Origin: Fimbriiglobus sp.
Lineage (GTDB): Bacteria > Planctomycetota > Planctomycetia > Gemmatales > Gemmataceae
NCBI GenBank assembly: GCA_025362195.1
Contig: JANYHV010000018.1
Location: forward strand, 1-43,513
DNA: 43,513 nucleotides
Direction: 5' to 3'
The first letter of the stretch is position 1. Every line of letters begins with the position of its first letter. Of this stretch, positions 7,359 to 43,378 are shown in pieces. The position numbers and the translations under genes are program-made. The notes under the pieces are model-generated. The model was not told the origin of the DNA and did no database searches. It worked only from the letters and a program-made list of their open reading frames with translations.

Positions 7359-7517
7359 CGGGTATGGGGTGTGGGGTATCGCAGCGAAGATCGGGTATGG
7401 GATATGGGGTTTGGGGTATCGCAAACCCGAGCCTGCGCGTCCCCGAGTTCTGCGACACCCCAAACCCGACACCCGACACCCGATCTCGACTGCGATACCC
7501 CACACACCCCATACCCG
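7359..7517. repeat. Heptad-repeat palindrome without a gene (family H, copy 1)
   Basis: Two forward arrays of degenerate 7-mers (7359-7386: CGGGTAT, GGGGTGT, GGGGTAT, CGCAGCG; 7392-7426: CGGGTAT, GGGATAT, GGGGTTT, GGGGTAT, CGCAAAC) face two reversed arrays (7448-7482 and about 7491-7517) around a short core. The spacers between paired arrays also match in inverse, as CGCAGCGAAGATCGGG and CGCAGTCGAGATCGGG. It would fold as a hairpin with arms of about 65-70 bp in any transcript running from the AsmA-like gene into the permease gene. The same 7-mers and CGCA terminus flank the IVS-protein gene at 37900-38571. Confidence 0.9.
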
Positions 7518-7551
7518 GTTCAAACCGCGACCGACCCGGACGGAGACCGCG

Positions 7552-27235: not shown

Positions 27236-27402
27236 GGCTCCGCCGCAGGCGACTCTTGTTAGCCCGACGCACGAGCGAGGGTCGATGGGTCGTTGACGAT
27301 GTTCGCAGTCGTCGGCCGTGCGGTCATCGACGACCGCCTTGCCCTCGACCGCTCGACCCTCGCTAGCGCGTCGGGCTAACAAGAGTCGCCTGCGGCGGAG
27401 CC
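27236..27402. repeat. Short element with 35-bp perfect inverted ends
   Basis: 27236-27270 and 27368-27402 are exact inverse copies over 35 bp (core GACTCTTGTTAGCCCGACGC), and pairing continues imperfectly inward through GAGCGAGGGTCG and CGACCCTCGCT. The 70-90 bp centre holds further short palindromes and no gene. It sits between the convergent tsaC and CotH-like genes, so it may also terminate both. Its size and lack of coding capacity are those of a MITE-like repeat. Confidence 0.88.
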
Positions 27403-35313: not shown

Positions 35314-35895
35314 ATGGGTTCGATTTCGATGGCCTTGTGCGCCGCCGGGTTCTTGGCCGCTGCCCCCGTGCCGAGTCTGGTGCCGACCTTCGCCCCGACT
35401 TACGGCAAGGCCCTGCTGCTCGCCCAGGAGCAGAAGAAGCCGGTCGCGGTGTTCATCGGCCAGGGGGCCGAGGGGTTCGACAAGCTCGTGACCGACGGCG
35501 GCCTGACCGTAGACGCGGCCCGGGCGCTCAAGGCCGAGTACGTCTGCCTGTACGTGGACGCGACGACCGAAGCGGGTAAGGACCTGGCCGGGTCGTTCCA
35601 GATGACCGAAGGGGTCATCCTCAGCGACCGCAGTGGCGGCCTGCAGGCCCTCCGGCACGAGGGCGCGATCTCGCCCGTCGTGCTGAACAGCTACGCCGTG
35701 ACGTACTCGCAGCCGGCGCTGGCCGTGACGCAGACGAGCTACTCGGGCCGCACGTCGCTCTTCGGGGCGACGGACAACCGGCCGGTGATGAACGCCGTGG
35801 TCAACGTCCGGGACACCGTGTTCCCGAACGCCCCCGGCTACCTCTTCCCGGCCCGCAGTAGTTGCCCGAACGGCCGCTGCCCGAACGCCCGGTAA
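35314..35895 (+). CDS. Exported thioredoxin-like protein of unknown function
   Basis: A 193-residue protein with a hydrophobic N-terminus (about 1-20, [14 protein letters not shown]) that may be a signal peptide. Residues about 28-120 have the alternating helix-strand layout of a thioredoxin-like fold: [20 protein letters not shown] at the beginning and [15 protein letters not shown] later, but no CxxC is present. The end is rich in Ser, Arg and Asn with [12 protein letters not shown]. It is likely not redox active. GGAGATGA precedes the ATG. A leader hairpin lies upstream. No firm family assignment. Confidence 0.65.
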
Positions 35896-36023
35896 CCCCG
35901 GCCTCCGCCAACCCGCCCCGACCGCCGGTTTCGGCCTGTGCCCCCGGCGGGCCGTGGAGTAGAACGGCACTGTACGGTATCCCACCGTCGGTGCCCTTCT
36001 CTCCCTGGTGCGTCGAGGTTTTC

Positions 36024-37898
36024 ATGTCTGCGATTCAAGAACTCGAGTCGGTCACGATTCGCTTCGCCGGCGACTCCGGCGACGGGATGCAACTCGCCGG
36101 GACGCAATTCACGAACACGTCCGCGATCCTCGGCAACGACATCGCCACCTTCCCGGACTTCCCCGCCGAGATCCGCGCCCCCGCCGGCACCTTACCCGGC
36201 GTCTCGGGCTTCCAGGTCCACTTCTCGTCCACCGACATTCACACGCCCGGCGACGTTGTCAACTGCCTCGTCGTCATGAACGCGGCGGCGCTCAAGACCA
36301 ACCTCCGCGACCTCGAACCCGGCGGGTTCTTGATCGTCAACTCCGAGTCGTTCGGCGTGTCGGACCTGGACAAGGCGAAGTACAAAATCTCCCCATTAGA
36401 GGACGGCTCGCTGGCCGGCTACCGCGTGGTGCGGGTGCCGATCACCAAGCTGACCCGCGAGTCGGTCGCCGAGTGCAAGCTCAGCCCGCGCGAGGCCGAC
36501 CGGTGCAAGAACTTCTTCGCCCTGGGCCTCGTTTACTGGATGTACGAGCGGCCGTTGGAAGTCACCATGAAGTGGGTCCGCGAGAAGTTCGCCACGAACC
36601 CGCAGTTCGTGGACGCCAACATCCGCGCCTTGAAGGCCGGGTACAACTACGGCGAGACGGTCGAACTCCTGCCGGTCCAGTACCGCGTCGCCAAGGCCAA
36701 GACCGCCCCGGGCACGTACCGCAAGATCACCGGCAACGACGCGCTCGCCATCGGCCTGGCCGCGGCGGCGAAGCTGGCGAACAAGACCCTCGTCTTCTCC
36801 GGCTACCCGATCACTCCGGCCAGTTCGGTGATGGAGGCGCTGGCCACCCCGGACATGCGGCGGTACGGCATCAAGGTGCTGCAAGCCGAGGACGAGATCG
36901 CCGCGTGCGGGATCGCCATCGGCGCGAGCTTCGCCGGGGCCATCGGCGTCACGGCCACCAGCGGGCCGGGCATCTGCCTCAAGGCCGAGGCGGTCAACCT
37001 GGCCGTCATGACCGAGTTGCCGCTGGTGATCCTTAACATCCAGCGCGGCGGCCCGAGCACCGGTTTGCCGACGAAGACCGAGCAGTCGGACCTGTTGCAA
37101 GTGCTGTTCGGCCGCAACGGCGAAAGCCCGGTCGCGGTCATCGCCCCGTGTACTCCCGGCGACTGCTACGAGATGGCCGTCGAAGCGGTCCGGCTCGCCA
37201 CGCAGTTCATGACCCCGGTCTACCTGCTGTCCGACGGCTACCTGGCCAACGGGTCCGAGCCGTGGAAGTTGCCCGACCTGGCGACGCAGAAGCCGATCGT
37301 GATTAACCACCCGACGGCGCACAATAGCGAGGGTTGGACCGGCGCGGGTCACGAGGTCGGCGAGGGGTCGGCGTCGCAGTACCTGCCGTACAAGCGGAAC
37401 GAGCACCTGGTCCGCCCGTGGGCCATCCCGGGCACGCCGGGGTTGGAGCACCGCATCGGCGGCATCGAGAAGCAGGACGTGACCGGCAACATCAACTACG
37501 AGCCGGCCAACCACGAGCACATGGTCCACACGCGGTGGAAGAAGGTCGAAGCGATCGCCAACGTCATCCCCGACCTGGCCGTGACCGGCGACCTCGACGC
37601 CGACCTGCTCGTCGTCGGCTGGGGCGGCACCTTCGGCAGCATCACGACGGCCGTCGAGCGCGCCCGCAAGCAGGGGATCAAGGTCGCCCAGGCCCACTTC
37701 CGCTACCTCAACCCGATGCCCAAGAACACCGCCGAAGTGTTGAAGAAGTACCCCAAGATCCTCGTCCCCGAGCTAAACTCCGGCCAGTTGTGCTGGCTCC
37801 TGCGGGCGAAGTACCTCGCGCCGGCCGAAGGGTTGAACAAGATCCAGGGCAAGCCGTTCCTCGTCAGCGAGATCCTGTCGGCGATCGAAAAGCAGTAA
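36024..37898 (+). CDS. korA: 2-oxoacid:ferredoxin oxidoreductase, fused gamma-alpha subunit
   Basis: A 624-residue subunit of the ThDP enzyme that turns a 2-oxoacid (probably 2-oxoglutarate) plus CoA into acyl-CoA, CO2 and reduced ferredoxin. Residues about 10-190 are the gamma domain ([20 protein letters not shown]), and residues about 215-624 the alpha part ([35 protein letters not shown]). Gamma-alpha fusion is normal for the KorAB class. The ATG at 36024 gives the family N-terminus; a longer open frame upstream is not conserved-looking. Its partner korB follows, but 687 bp away because an IVS-type element lies between. Substrate (2-oxoglutarate against pyruvate) is inferred from overall similarity. 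Confidence 0.93.
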
Positions 37899-37899
37899 A

Positions 37900-38571
37900 A
37901 ATCGGGTGTCGGGTGTCGGGTTTGGGGTGTCGCAGAAGTTTCGGGTCGTCTTGGACTGTGTCCCTCGACGATTCGTGGGTTCGGTTTGATCGGCGGGGCT
38001 TGTTGCGGAGAGGTTTGGAGGTGCCGACGTGCCACTGCAAACTTACCGCGACCTGGACGTGTGGCAGGCGGGGATCGAGTTGGTCGAGAAGGTGTACTTC
38101 TTGGCCAAGTCGCTACCGGACGACGAGAGGTACGGCATGACGAGCCAACTCCGGCGGGCGGTGATTTCGATCCCGCTAAACATCGCCGAAGGTTACGGCC
38201 GCAGCCACCGCGGCGACTACCTCCGCTGCTTGTCCTTTTCTCAAGGCTCCTTGAAGGAAGTCGAGACCCTCTTGATCATCATCGGCCGCCTCAAGTGTGC
38301 CGAGCGATTCGCGCTGCAACCTTGCTGGGAACTGTGCCAACGAATCGGCAAAATGCTCACCCGCTTGATGCAATCCCTGTCCGGAACGACACGCCCCCCG
38401 ACACCCACCCCCTACAAGAAGCCCAATGAACAAAACCACTGAATCGACTCAGTAACACACAAAGAATCCTTATCGATCCCGCCGTCGATTCGAATCCGAT
38501 CAAGAGACACAACGAACAAAACCAATCGTCCGATTCTGCGACACCCCATACCCGACACCCGACACCCGATT
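37900..38571. mobile_element. Inverted-repeat element carrying an IVS-type four-helix-bundle gene
   Basis: A 672-bp unit between korA and korB. The left end (37900-37937) reads AAT then CGGGTGT, CGGGTGT, CGGGTTT, GGGGTGT, CGCAGAA; the right end (38534-38571) is its inverse with one 7-mer changed. Inside each, at matching distance (22-23 bp), lies a second inverted pair: CTGTGTCCCTCGACGATTCG at 37956-37975 and its near-inverse CGAATCCGATCAAGAGACAC from 38491. So the ends match over about 75 bp. It carries one gene. Absence of a transposase is notable; no clear target duplication is seen. Calling it mobile is inference from structure and from its position splitting a two-subunit enzyme operon. 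Confidence 0.75.
38029..38442 (+). CDS. Four-helix-bundle protein of the 23S rRNA intervening-sequence family
   Basis: A 137-residue helical protein of the PF05635/TIGR02436 type. DLDVWQAGIELVEKVYFLAK, YGMTSQLRRAVISIPLNIAEG, YGRSHRGDYLRCLSFSQGSL and KEVETLLIIIGRL are the four helices in order. Relatives are encoded in intervening sequences within 23S rRNA genes and, as bAvd, in diversity-generating retroelements, where they bind nucleic acid or reverse transcriptase. Neither a 23S rRNA gene nor a reverse transcriptase is here. The GTG start at 38029 has GGAGG upstream. The last 25 residues are Pro/Thr-rich and non-conserved. It is flanked by the inverted heptad arrays. Confidence 0.88.
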   Translation: MPLQTYRDLDVWQAGIELVEKVYFLAKSLPDDERYGMTSQLRRAVISIPLNIAEGYGRSHRGDYLRCLSFSQGSLKEVETLLIIIGRLKCAERFALQPCWELCQRIGKMLTRLMQSLSGTTRPPTPTPYKKPNEQNH

Positions 38572-38585
38572 CCGCTAAGGAAACA

Positions 38586-39602
38586 ATGTCCACCACACTA
38601 AGCCTCCCCACCCTGACCACCAAAGACCTCACCACCGACCAGGACGTGCGGTGGTGCCCCGGGTGCGGGGACTACTCCATCCTCGCGCAGATGAAGAAGG
38701 CCCTGCTCGGGGTCGGCGTGCCGCGCGAGAAGATGGTGTTCGTCTCGGGGATCGGCTGCTCGTCCCGCTTCCCCTACTACATGAACACCTACGGCTTCCA
38801 CACCATCCACGGCCGCGCGCCCACGTTCGCCACCGGGGTTAAGCTCGCCAACCCGGACTTGCAGGTCTGGATGGTCACCGGCGACGGCGACGGCTTCTCC
38901 ATCGGCGGCAACCACACGATGCACCTGTTGCGCCGCAACGTGGACATCAAGGTCTTGCTCTTCAATAACGAGATCTACGGGTTGACGAAGGGCCAGTACT
39001 CGCCGACGAGCCGGACCGGGACCAAGTCGAAGACCAGCGTCACCGGGTCGATCGAGTCGCCGATCCGCCCGTTGACGTTGGCCCTCGCGGCCGAGGCGAC
39101 CTTCGTCGCGCGGACCATCGACATCGACATCCACAACCTCGTCGCCATCCTGCAGCGGGCGGCGGCGCACAAGGGGACCGCGTTCGTCGAGATTTATCAG
39201 AACTGCAAGATCTTCAACGACGACGTGTGGGCCTACGCGACCGACCGGACCATGAAGTCCGAGAACTTGCTGTACCTCGAACACGGCAAGCCGATGGTCT
39301 TCGGCAAGAACCGCGACAAGGGCATCCGGCTGATCGGCCTGAAGCCCGAAGTCGTGGTCATCGGTAAGGACTGCGCCCTCGACGACCTGCTCGTCCACGA
39401 CGAGACCGACGCCGTTGCCGCGTCCCTGTTGAGCCGCATGAGCAACCCCGAGTTCCCCGAGCCGGTCGGCGTCGTTTACGCGGTCCGCAAGCCGACCTAC
39501 GAGGAGTTGGTGCAACAGCAGATCGACGCCTCGCTGGCCAAGAAAGGCCCCGGCAAGCTGGCCGACCTGTTCGAGTCCGAAGACCTGTGGACCGTCGAGT
39601 AA
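38586..39602 (+). CDS. korB: 2-oxoacid:ferredoxin oxidoreductase, beta subunit
   Basis: A 338-residue catalytic subunit that holds ThDP and an iron-sulfur cluster. RWCPGCGDYSIL (Cys24, Cys27), GIGCSSRFPYYM (Cys58) and a later QNCKIF cysteine are candidate cluster ligands. MVTGDGDGFSIGGNH and LLFNNEIYGLTKGQYSPTS form the ThDP-Mg motif. It pairs with korA; AAGGAA before the ATG lies just outside the right end of the IVS element, so translation should be intact. Transcription must pass through the element's palindromic ends. Confidence 0.94.
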   Translation: MSTTLSLPTLTTKDLTTDQDVRWCPGCGDYSILAQMKKALLGVGVPREKMVFVSGIGCSSRFPYYMNTYGFHTIHGRAPTFATGVKLANPDLQVWMVTGDGDGFSIGGNHTMHLLRRNVDIKVLLFNNEIYGLTKGQYSPTSRTGTKSKTSVTGSIESPIRPLTLALAAEATFVARTIDIDIHNLVAILQRAAAHKGTAFVEIYQNCKIFNDDVWAYATDRTMKSENLLYLEHGKPMVFGKNRDKGIRLIGLKPEVVVIGKDCALDDLLVHDETDAVAASLLSRMSNPEFPEPVGVVYAVRKPTYEELVQQQIDASLAKKGPGKLADLFESEDLWTVE

Positions 39603-41712: not shown

Positions 41713-42207
41713 TTTGCCCCTGGGTTCTAGATTGGCCCTGTTTTAGTGCGAGGTCGGGTGCGCTGGAGATAGTTGCGACGGTCAGCTGCGCGAGGGGGTC
41801 GCCTTCCTTCAGCACGAACGTAAACGGGCCGAGGTTGGTGATTTCTAAAGTAACCGTCCCGCCCCACCCGGCATGGATAGTTGGGGCGGTGAAGTGAACT
41901 AGAAGCCCTGTCCTGGCCCGTGTACTCTTGGCGTCTACGAAACAGATCAACTCGGGATGACGCTGAAGTTTACCTGGCTCATCAGGATTTACAGTCGGTG
42001 TACCTATCTTTTCCTTCGTCTGCCATAAGACGAAACCAAACCGGCGGACGACGACCTCGTTGCCGCGCCGGTACACTAACAGATCGCCCGAGTCGTCCCC
42101 ATCCGGGATCGGCACCTGTTTCGTCTTGAAATTTTCCCACTTAAACGTGCCGACCCGGAGTTCCGGGTAGCCGCCGTGGTCAGGTCTGCCAGTGTTTAAG
42201 GCGTCGC
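41690..42207 (-). pseudogene. dcd: dCTP deaminase/dUTPase-like gene, 5' end lost to IS630
   Basis: The minus strand reads a protein whose core, FVDAKSTRARTGLLVHFTAP then TIHAGWGGTVTLEITNLGPF and GDPLAQL, is that of trimeric dCTP deaminases, which make dUTP (or dUMP) from dCTP. The frame is open up to the IS630 boundary at 42207, so codons for the N-terminal part are missing. The flank on the other side of the IS (43378 onward) does not continue the frame convincingly, so the gene was probably also rearranged. The last 20 residues are read through a terminator hairpin and may not be native. Confidence 0.65.
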
Positions 42208-42209
42208 TA

Positions 42210-43375
42210 GTGTCCTGAATCGGAAGTCCGGTGAATAATCTTGCGCTCCGTCGCCGAGGCCGTTACGCTCTCGGGAAAGGAGACATGGCATGGCACGCCC
42301 GAAGCCCAAACTCACCCTGTCCGACGACGAGCGCCGCAAACTCACCACCTGGGCCGGCCGGCCCAAGAGCACCCAGCGACTCGCCCTCCGCGCCCGCATC
42401 GTCTTGGCCTGTGCCGACGAGCCGTGCAACACCGTCGCCGCCGCCGAACTCGGCGTCTGCAACGCCACCGTCGGCACCCGGCGGAATCGCTTCGTGGCCA
42501 AGCGGCCCGACGGCCTCGTCGACGAACCGCGGCCCGGTGCCCCCCGCCCCGTCACCGACGCCGAGGTCGAGCGGGTCGTCACCCGGACGCTGGAGACGAA
42601 GCCCGAGAACGCCACCCACTGGAGCACCCGCACGATGGCGAAGGCGGCCGGCATGTCGCAGTCGGCCGTCAGCCGCATCTGGCGCGCCTCCGAACTCAAG
42701 CCCCATCTGTACGACACCTTCACGCTGTCCACCGACCCGTTCTTCGTCGGGAAGGTGCGCGACGTCGTCGGCCTCTCCCTCGCCCCGCCGGAGAAGGCGA
42801 TCGTGCTGTCGGTGGACGAGAAGAGCCAGGTGCAGGCGCTCGACCGCACCCAGCCGATCCTGCCCATGACGCCCGGCCAGGCCGAGCGCGGCACCCACGA
42901 CTACGTCCGCCACGGCGTCACCTCGCTGTTCGCCGCCCCGAACGTGGCGACGGGGGAGGTCATCGGGACGTGCCACCGCCGGCACCGCCACCAGGAGTTC
43001 CTGAAATTCCTCGACCACGTGGACGCCACTCTGGTGAAGGGGCCGGGCGTGAGCGTCCACCTCGTGCTGGACAACTACGCGACCCACAAGACGCCGGCCG
43101 TCAAGCGGTGGCTGCTGCGGCACCCCGAGTACCACCTGCACTTCATCCCGACGAGCAGTTCGTGGCTGAATCAAGTCGAGCGGTTCTTCGCCGAGATCAC
43201 CGAGAAGTGCATCCGCCGCGGGGCGTTCAAGAGCGTCGCGTCGTTGGAGAAGGCCATCGCCGACTACCCGACGGCGCACAACGCGAACCCGAAAGCGTTC
43301 GCTTGGGTCGCCGATGCCGACGCGATCCTGGATCGGGTCAAGAGAGTTTGCGAACGGACTTCCGATTCAGGACAC
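42210..43375 (+). mobile_element. IS630-family insertion sequence
   Basis: 1166 bp bounded by 21-bp perfect inverted repeats starting GTGTCCTGAATCGGAAG at 42210-42230 and inverse at 43355-43375. TA flanks both ends (42208-42209 and 43376-43377), the target duplication typical of IS630. It encodes one full-length transposase. It appears intact and recent. Confidence 0.95.
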
Positions 43376-43378
43376 TAG
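42290..43378 (+). CDS. IS630-family transposase
   Basis: A 362-residue DDE transposase. Residues about 1-140 carry helix-turn-helix DNA-binding domains (VAAAELGVCNATVGTRRNRF, MAKAAGMSQSAVSRIWRA). The catalytic core has the first Asp in VLSVDEKSQ, the second in HLVLDNYATHK and the Glu in SWLNQVERFFAE. The frame runs through the right inverted repeat, so the last residues (SDSGH) are coded by the repeat, and the stop TAG is made from the target TA plus the flanking G. ATG 42290 follows AAAGGAGA. Confidence 0.94.
   Translation: MARPKPKLTLSDDERRKLTTWAGRPKSTQRLALRARIVLACADEPCNTVAAAELGVCNATVGTRRNRFVAKRPDGLVDEPRPGAPRPVTDAEVERVVTRTLETKPENATHWSTRTMAKAAGMSQSAVSRIWRASELKPHLYDTFTLSTDPFFVGKVRDVVGLSLAPPEKAIVLSVDEKSQVQALDRTQPILPMTPGQAERGTHDYVRHGVTSLFAAPNVATGEVIGTCHRRHRHQEFLKFLDHVDATLVKGPGVSVHLVLDNYATHKTPAVKRWLLRHPEYHLHFIPTSSSWLNQVERFFAEITEKCIRRGAFKSVASLEKAIADYPTAHNANPKAFAWVADADAILDRVKRVCERTSDSGH

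Follow-up and report, generated by a model that had tools for sequence, protein, structure and literature searches.

To our knowledge, the S23 protein family (PF05635) has been without a known function since its discovery in the intervening sequences (IVS) of 23S rRNA. IVS with an S23p gene and terminal inverted repeats are described from the 23S rRNA of Leptospira and Coxiella, and the Coxiella IVS has tandem heptamers (GACAGAT) ahead of its gene (PMC4990558). The same paper reports excision by RNase III for Coxiella, states that the S23 protein is a pentamer, and is also our source for a proposal of 1993, cited there, that S23 IVS are mobile.

The element described here is located between the genes korA and korB of Fimbriiglobus sp., within a window of 43,513 nt (the whole stretch of DNA that was analysed). 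It resembles the 23S rRNA IVS in having a PF05635 gene within terminal inverted repeats, in its size range (about 0.4-0.7 kb) and in arms that can form one stem, but differs from them in its position in an operon gap and in the many gene-less pairs of the same unit that occur in the genome. The novelty that the first-pass annotation attributed to this locus has to be narrowed, as S23 elements with terminal inverted repeats are already known from 23S rRNA (PMC4990558). The stand-alone form, with its private unit and its family of gene-less copies within one genome, is the part for which the open-access literature that we searched gave no description.

A comparable organisation is known from REPINs and their RAYT genes (TnpA-REP; PMC3116915, PMC2817692), which likewise combine many short, gene-less inverted pairs of a lineage-private unit with one associated gene that has repeats on both sides. 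However, RAYT is a Y1 HUH transposase and REPINs consist of single REP palindromes, whereas the gene reported here encodes a four-helix-bundle S23 protein and the arms are tandem heptad arrays. The TAACTGA repeats of Beggiatoaceae and cyanobacteria are also intergenic tandem heptamers at many sites, and cyanobacteria likewise possess S23 genes with inverted heptad arms; these repeats, however, are reported to be in direct orientation, with 169 direct sets versus one inverted, and to have no associated gene (PMC4679880).

In a structure search, the S23 profile matched 2gsc and 2rld, with five chains each, and no Avd structure. By homology with these matches the S23 protein is probably a pentameric ring of four-helix bundles; no known catalytic domain is found in it. 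The Avd (bAvd) protein of diversity-generating retroelements has a four-helix-bundle pentamer fold as well. The present element of 0.7 kb has neither a reverse transcriptase nor template/variable repeats, nor any other gene. A defence or phage origin was likewise considered and rejected, as no PADLOC or PHROG family and no phage match was obtained.

The element between korA and korB

In the genome of the window (G000; a draft of 5.66 Mb, 87% complete, in which the window is contig 411) the element has a size of 0.67 kb. Its arms are two inverted arrays of 38 nt each, 596 nt apart and 97% complementary, with the pattern AAT-(CGGGTGT)n-CGCAGAA. The left (upstream) array at 37900-37937 on the forward strand reads AAT-CGGGTGT-CGGGTGT-CGGGTTT-GGGGTGT-CGCAGAA, and the right (downstream) array at 38534-38571 on the reverse strand is complementary to it at 37 of 38 positions. 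The sole gene between the arms (38029-38442, forward strand) has a GTG start and encodes an S23 four-helix-bundle protein of 137 aa, which matches PF05635 at 109 bits (cut-off 33.8) and also TIGR02436; it is oriented in sense relative to korAB. Two spacers without strand assignment, at 37938-38028 between left array and gene and at 38443-38533 between gene and right array, do not align with those of the orthologous element in the sister species (G001).

The inverted repeat reaches a score of 35, compared with a maximum of 15 among 682 sliding controls of the same geometry over the 43.5 kb and of 14 in 2000 first-order Markov shuffles. Likewise, the motif CGGGTGTCGGGTG was matched six times in the window, where 0.23 matches would be expected. 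The initial description of a PF05635 gene between inverted heptad arrays is thus borne out. A second inverted pair, said to lie equidistantly inside the arms, could not be recovered: the only candidate (37967-37976 / 38521-38530) is 10 nt long with nine matches, and its inward distance from the arm is 29 nt on the left but 3 nt on the right.

Both neighbours are on the forward strand and were assigned by their Pfam domains. The stop of the korA-type gene (2-oxoacid:ferredoxin oxidoreductase alpha/gamma; 35862-37898) lies 1 nt before the element, and the korB-type gene (TPP enzyme C domain; 38586-39602) starts 14 nt past it. The element was said to split korA and korB, which is correct in that it separates the two genes, but neither gene is broken, given the korA stop at 37898 and the korB start at 38586. 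No Rfam family is found between 35500 and 41000 of the window, and the element is not within a 23S rRNA gene. A second copy of the CGGGTGT heptad family, overlooked in the first-pass annotation, is located at about 7359-7521 (no strand assigned). It is gene-less and nested, with two arrays per side around a loop of about 30 nt.

Inverted arrays at PF05635 loci and their genomic settings

The architecture of the window element is found at many other PF05635 genes. We surveyed 125 loci from planctomycete relatives, from cyanobacterial and Gemmatimonadota plasmids and from named genomes of several phyla, taking as score the best ungapped match between the two flanks, the right one being reverse-complemented. 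A gene-spanning inverted repeat with a score of at least 16 is present in 90 of the 125 loci, compared with 23 of 1500 cross-locus pairings (1.5%), and pairings in direct orientation within loci reach this threshold in 8%. This search had been suggested as a check on the window element, and its outcome agrees with the suggestion: the inverted-array architecture around PF05635 genes is general and occurs in several phyla. The period of the arms is 7 in 70 loci and 8 in 15 loci, the latter mostly from Rhizobiales and not independent because they are orthologous. Both arms of a locus have a common unit, and this unit varies from locus to locus. We do not claim a common core of all units, which is weak and barely above letter-shuffled controls.

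The korA-korB gap measures 687 nt with the element in G000 and 628 nt in G001 (the Fimbriiglobus MAG at locus L178 represents the same DNA as G001). Element-free gaps, which had been proposed as a further check, are found in G002 and most other relatives having both genes, with a length of 24-291 nt. Neither of the two outcomes that would have contradicted the first-pass annotation thus occurred. In G019 (99 nt) and G011 (135 nt) the gap contains gene-less arrays of other units, and the unit in G011 is similar to the one at an S23 element of this same genome (L044). The different array families in the gaps of G019 and G011 indicate independent landings at korA-korB. No recent jump of any gene-bearing copy was found, and the window element occupies the same site in G001. 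Such same-site persistence of gene-bearing copies also fits a gene retained by the host.

S23 elements with heptad-like arms are located in the 23S rRNA of Sporomusa and Alkaliphilus, where they represent classical IVS. The four near-identical copies in Sporomusa were considered as recent jumps, but this was rejected, as the copies represent four rRNA operons, so that the sequences around them are identical as well. In three Clostridia MAGs, S23 elements with GGTTAGA-type arms are inserted into RNase P RNA (RF00010; L217 1323-2095, L225 1329-2095, L223 1343-1964). The helix concerned is that at model positions 126-150; the elements occupy its loop, and their arms lengthen the stem.

A different setting is shared by Brucella, Ochrobactrum, Phyllobacterium, Mesorhizobium and other Rhizobiales (L186-L204), in which a single S23 element, orthologous throughout, has arms composed of octads (TAGGGGAG/TAAGGGAG). 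A glutamine-synthetase-type gene lies on one side of it and an FAD-oxidoreductase gene on the other, its arms begin at the stop codon of the former, and it keeps this locus across genera. Two further settings may be mentioned from cyanobacterial plasmids: in Nostoc (L175) S23 lies between the two ribonucleotide reductase subunit genes and antisense to them, and in Anabaena (L176) it is found within a type I-D CRISPR locus, flanked by cas6 and cas4.

Gene-less copies and private units

The gene-less copies were surveyed at 40 fetched sites in G000 and G001. Adjacent arrays are always paired with the same polarity (32 +/- pairs, no -/+ pair), typically with four units per arm (range 2-16) and loops of 27-109 nt, and several copies are nested, as is the one at 7359-7521 of the window. 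The inner end of the array is CGCAGA in 40 of 75 arrays, followed in frequency by GGTCAG/GGTCGG/GGTCGA, and the outer end is AAT or GAT in 35 of 75. The loops are mutually unrelated, save for one orthologous pair and short matches. We considered that gene-less copies are internal deletions of the gene-bearing copy, and rejected this, as their loops are without a recognisable S23 remnant.

Orthologous loci of G000 and G001 are about 85-90% identical. At two of them (L133/L233 and L148/L240) a gene-less copy is present in G000 and absent from G001, while several others have the copy in both species. The earlier claim of a mobile or amplifying element is therefore supported as far as gene-less copies are concerned, which are present or absent at orthologous sites between sister species, but not for the gene-bearing copy, which is found at one korA-korB site in both Fimbriiglobus species having it. 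Target-site duplications show no excess over a between-element control, with only two cases of 7-8 nt, among them possibly a 7-nt duplication (TCTTCGA) at L133.

Each unit is largely private to the genomes that possess the corresponding S23 gene. In pattern searches (for CGGGTGT with 20 nt and at most one mismatch), in which a site is tallied several times because matches overlap along the arrays, CGGGTGT was matched 159 times in G000 and 97 times in G001, and never in G002, G003, G008, G012 and G034. The unit ATTGAAG of the second S23 gene in G000 (L002) has 47 matches there, AGTGGTC of the extra S23 gene in G001 (L003) has 14, and AGTAGGC, the unit of G008, has 169 in that genome; each of the three is missing from five other genomes. 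AGTTTTC is carried by the S23 genes of both G005 and G025 and has 182 and 32 matches in them, respectively, but none in six others. As a further unit, TGAAGGGG is found at L019.

Random chunks of G034, which has seven S23 genes, contain nine inverted periodic pairs in 400 kb. Six of these closely match arms of S23 elements of the same genome, including units of period 8 and period 10. In 800 kb sampled from four S23-negative genomes there is no pair of period 7 or 8 and one weak pair of period 9. The richness in arrays varies among S23-positive genomes, since small samples of G003 (200 kb), G047 (120 kb) and G054 (140 kb) yielded no gene-less arrays, and the sampled chunks of G002 and G012 one or two pairs. 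An orphan inverted array, AGTTCCGAGTTTCGAGTTT, occurs in G034 (C1:1850001-1870000; L273-L292), where no S23 gene matches it; it possibly represents a relic family.

The distances between S23 proteins are correlated with the distances between their units (Mantel r 0.356), and the correlation persists when the GC content of locus and unit is controlled (partial r 0.279 for all loci and 0.385 for planctomycetes, p 0.0005). This pattern fits a recognition of the unit by the S23 protein, although a common ancestry of gene and arms may account for part of it.

Proposed spread or retention, and alternative explanations

We consider that array-bounded DNA is spread or retained in an S23-dependent and host-assisted manner, and that the window element is a stand-alone relative of the S23 IVS of 23S rRNA, a reading to which we give about an even chance. 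The S23 gene, probably without a promoter of its own, lies between inverted arrays whose unit belongs to this gene alone, and its protein would recognise this unit either in the form of double-stranded DNA or in that of the hairpin that the unit makes. In a host-assisted reaction, the gene-bearing element and the many gene-less pairs might then multiply or persist in trans. This logic would follow that of REPIN and RAYT, with an S23 gene and without a transposase. We further propose that pairing of the arms into a stem is what makes the element tolerable within operon gaps and within the loops of structured RNAs. In favour of this reading are the recurrence of the architecture in several phyla, the link of each gene to one unit with gene-less copies in its genome, the lack of arrays of period 7 or 8 in the sampled S23-negative genomes, the presence or absence of gene-less copies in sister species, the sense orientation of S23, the purifying selection on the gene that was tested, the correlation of unit and protein, and the five-chain structures. 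Against it stand the lack of recent jumps of a gene-bearing copy, of general target-site duplications and of a known catalytic domain, the S23-positive samples without gene-less arrays, and the orphan array in G034. The recognition by the S23 protein, the transposition-like step and the enzyme behind it are what we infer.

Within single gene-less elements the two arms are about as alike as at family level (0.890 versus 0.881, p 0.14), so that nothing points to their co-evolution beyond the family, and the unit is therefore held constant in trans and not by pairing. The evidence as a whole speaks for a factor that acts in trans and is specific to the unit, and the S23 protein suggests itself for this role.

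A rather unlikely alternative is that S23 is a domesticated nucleic-acid-binding protein, retained by the host as a regulator, with the arrays as its dispersed binding sites or hairpin terminators that were multiplied long ago by other means. Purifying selection acts on S23 in the one gene tested, the window gene against its G001 orthologue, where dN/dS is 0.028 (an approximate value because the dS of 0.955 is close to saturation). Such a regulator would also be expected to persist by vertical descent, as is seen in two species at korA-korB and across Rhizobiales in the glutamine-synthetase/oxidoreductase gap. The arms of orthologues, which stay conserved while the loops diverge, fit it as well, and the recognition in trans that it predicts agrees with the correlation of unit and protein. 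However, units private to one or two species, the patchy occurrence of S23 (32 of 59 relatives) and the gain or loss of copies between sister species represent a turnover that would be fast for a host regulon. Gene-less pairs also have no consistent orientation to neighbouring genes (6 ++, 11 --, with neighbours called by reading-frame GC bias).

Alternatively, the element may behave as an intervening sequence at the RNA level, in which the arms pair, RNase III cuts, and reinsertion proceeds via an RNA or cDNA intermediate. We regard this as clearly improbable. It would account for the orientation of planctomycete S23 genes (42 in sense with both neighbours, 2 antisense to both, by reading-frame GC bias), for the elements in 23S rRNA and in RNase P RNA (in the latter, a native helix is lengthened by the arms), and for the strong stem predicted in the window transcript (z -7.4), and it agrees with the published excision by RNase III in Coxiella (PMC4990558). 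The arms, however, bear no mark of selection as RNA, as G.U mismatches are not in excess over A.C mismatches (72:61) and covariation within elements does not exceed the family level. The gene-less copies are likewise randomly oriented, and array-full G008 and G001 have no reverse transcriptase match (PF00078; both are drafts, with G001 86% and G008 94% complete).

It is very improbable that these are REPIN- or MITE-like repeats of the ordinary kind, which owe their movement to an unlinked transposase while S23 is a passenger. REPINs and MITEs are similar in size and copy number, in having inverted ends and in their intergenic position, and Y1 transposases are common in the family, yet the array-rich G001, G008 and G025 are without a PF01797 match. 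Moreover, the unit tracks the S23 gene and not a transposase, and S23 is the sole gene within the arms. The drafts of G008 and G001 yield no match to either a Y1 transposase or a reverse transcriptase, which adds to the case for the S23-dependent, host-assisted spread or retention. As far as detectable, neither enzyme is needed in the same genome, in agreement with the earlier impression of an element without a visible transposase. The chance that slippage-born short tandem repeats happen to flank the gene is practically negligible, since the number of units per arm does vary but the cross-locus, S23-negative-genome and sliding or shuffle controls, the strict +/- polarity and the fixed inner ends all argue against it.

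A private unit together with gene-less copies turns the unknown function of S23 into a direct question, namely the binding of its own versus a foreign unit. If S23 also drives the gain of copies, this would constitute a strategy by which a mobile element does without its own transposase, and would make it a candidate origin of dispersed, unexplained heptamer repeats. Tentatively, and with rather less than even confidence, these could be widespread DNA elements that multiply with a single small four-helix-bundle protein as the sole factor that they encode, each protein reading its own tandem heptad. They might then be the origin of some unexplained heptamer repeats in planctomycetes, cyanobacteria and others, with the IVS of 23S rRNA as their best known, though atypical, members.

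The window also contains repetitive structures of other kinds. An inverted-repeat cluster with AAGAATTTCCACCACAGAGGCGACAGAG units is located at 1982-2321, and an inverted repeat of 57 nt (93%; GGCTCCGCCGCAGGCGACTCTTGTTAGCCCGACGC...) at 27236-27402, which is not heptad-based and has similar letters in G001 (L236). A complete-looking insertion sequence with perfect inverted ends of 24 nt (CTAGTGTCCTGAATCGGAAGTCCG) extends from 42207 to 43378 and has a reading frame of 362 aa (42290-43378), identified by eye as IS630-like.
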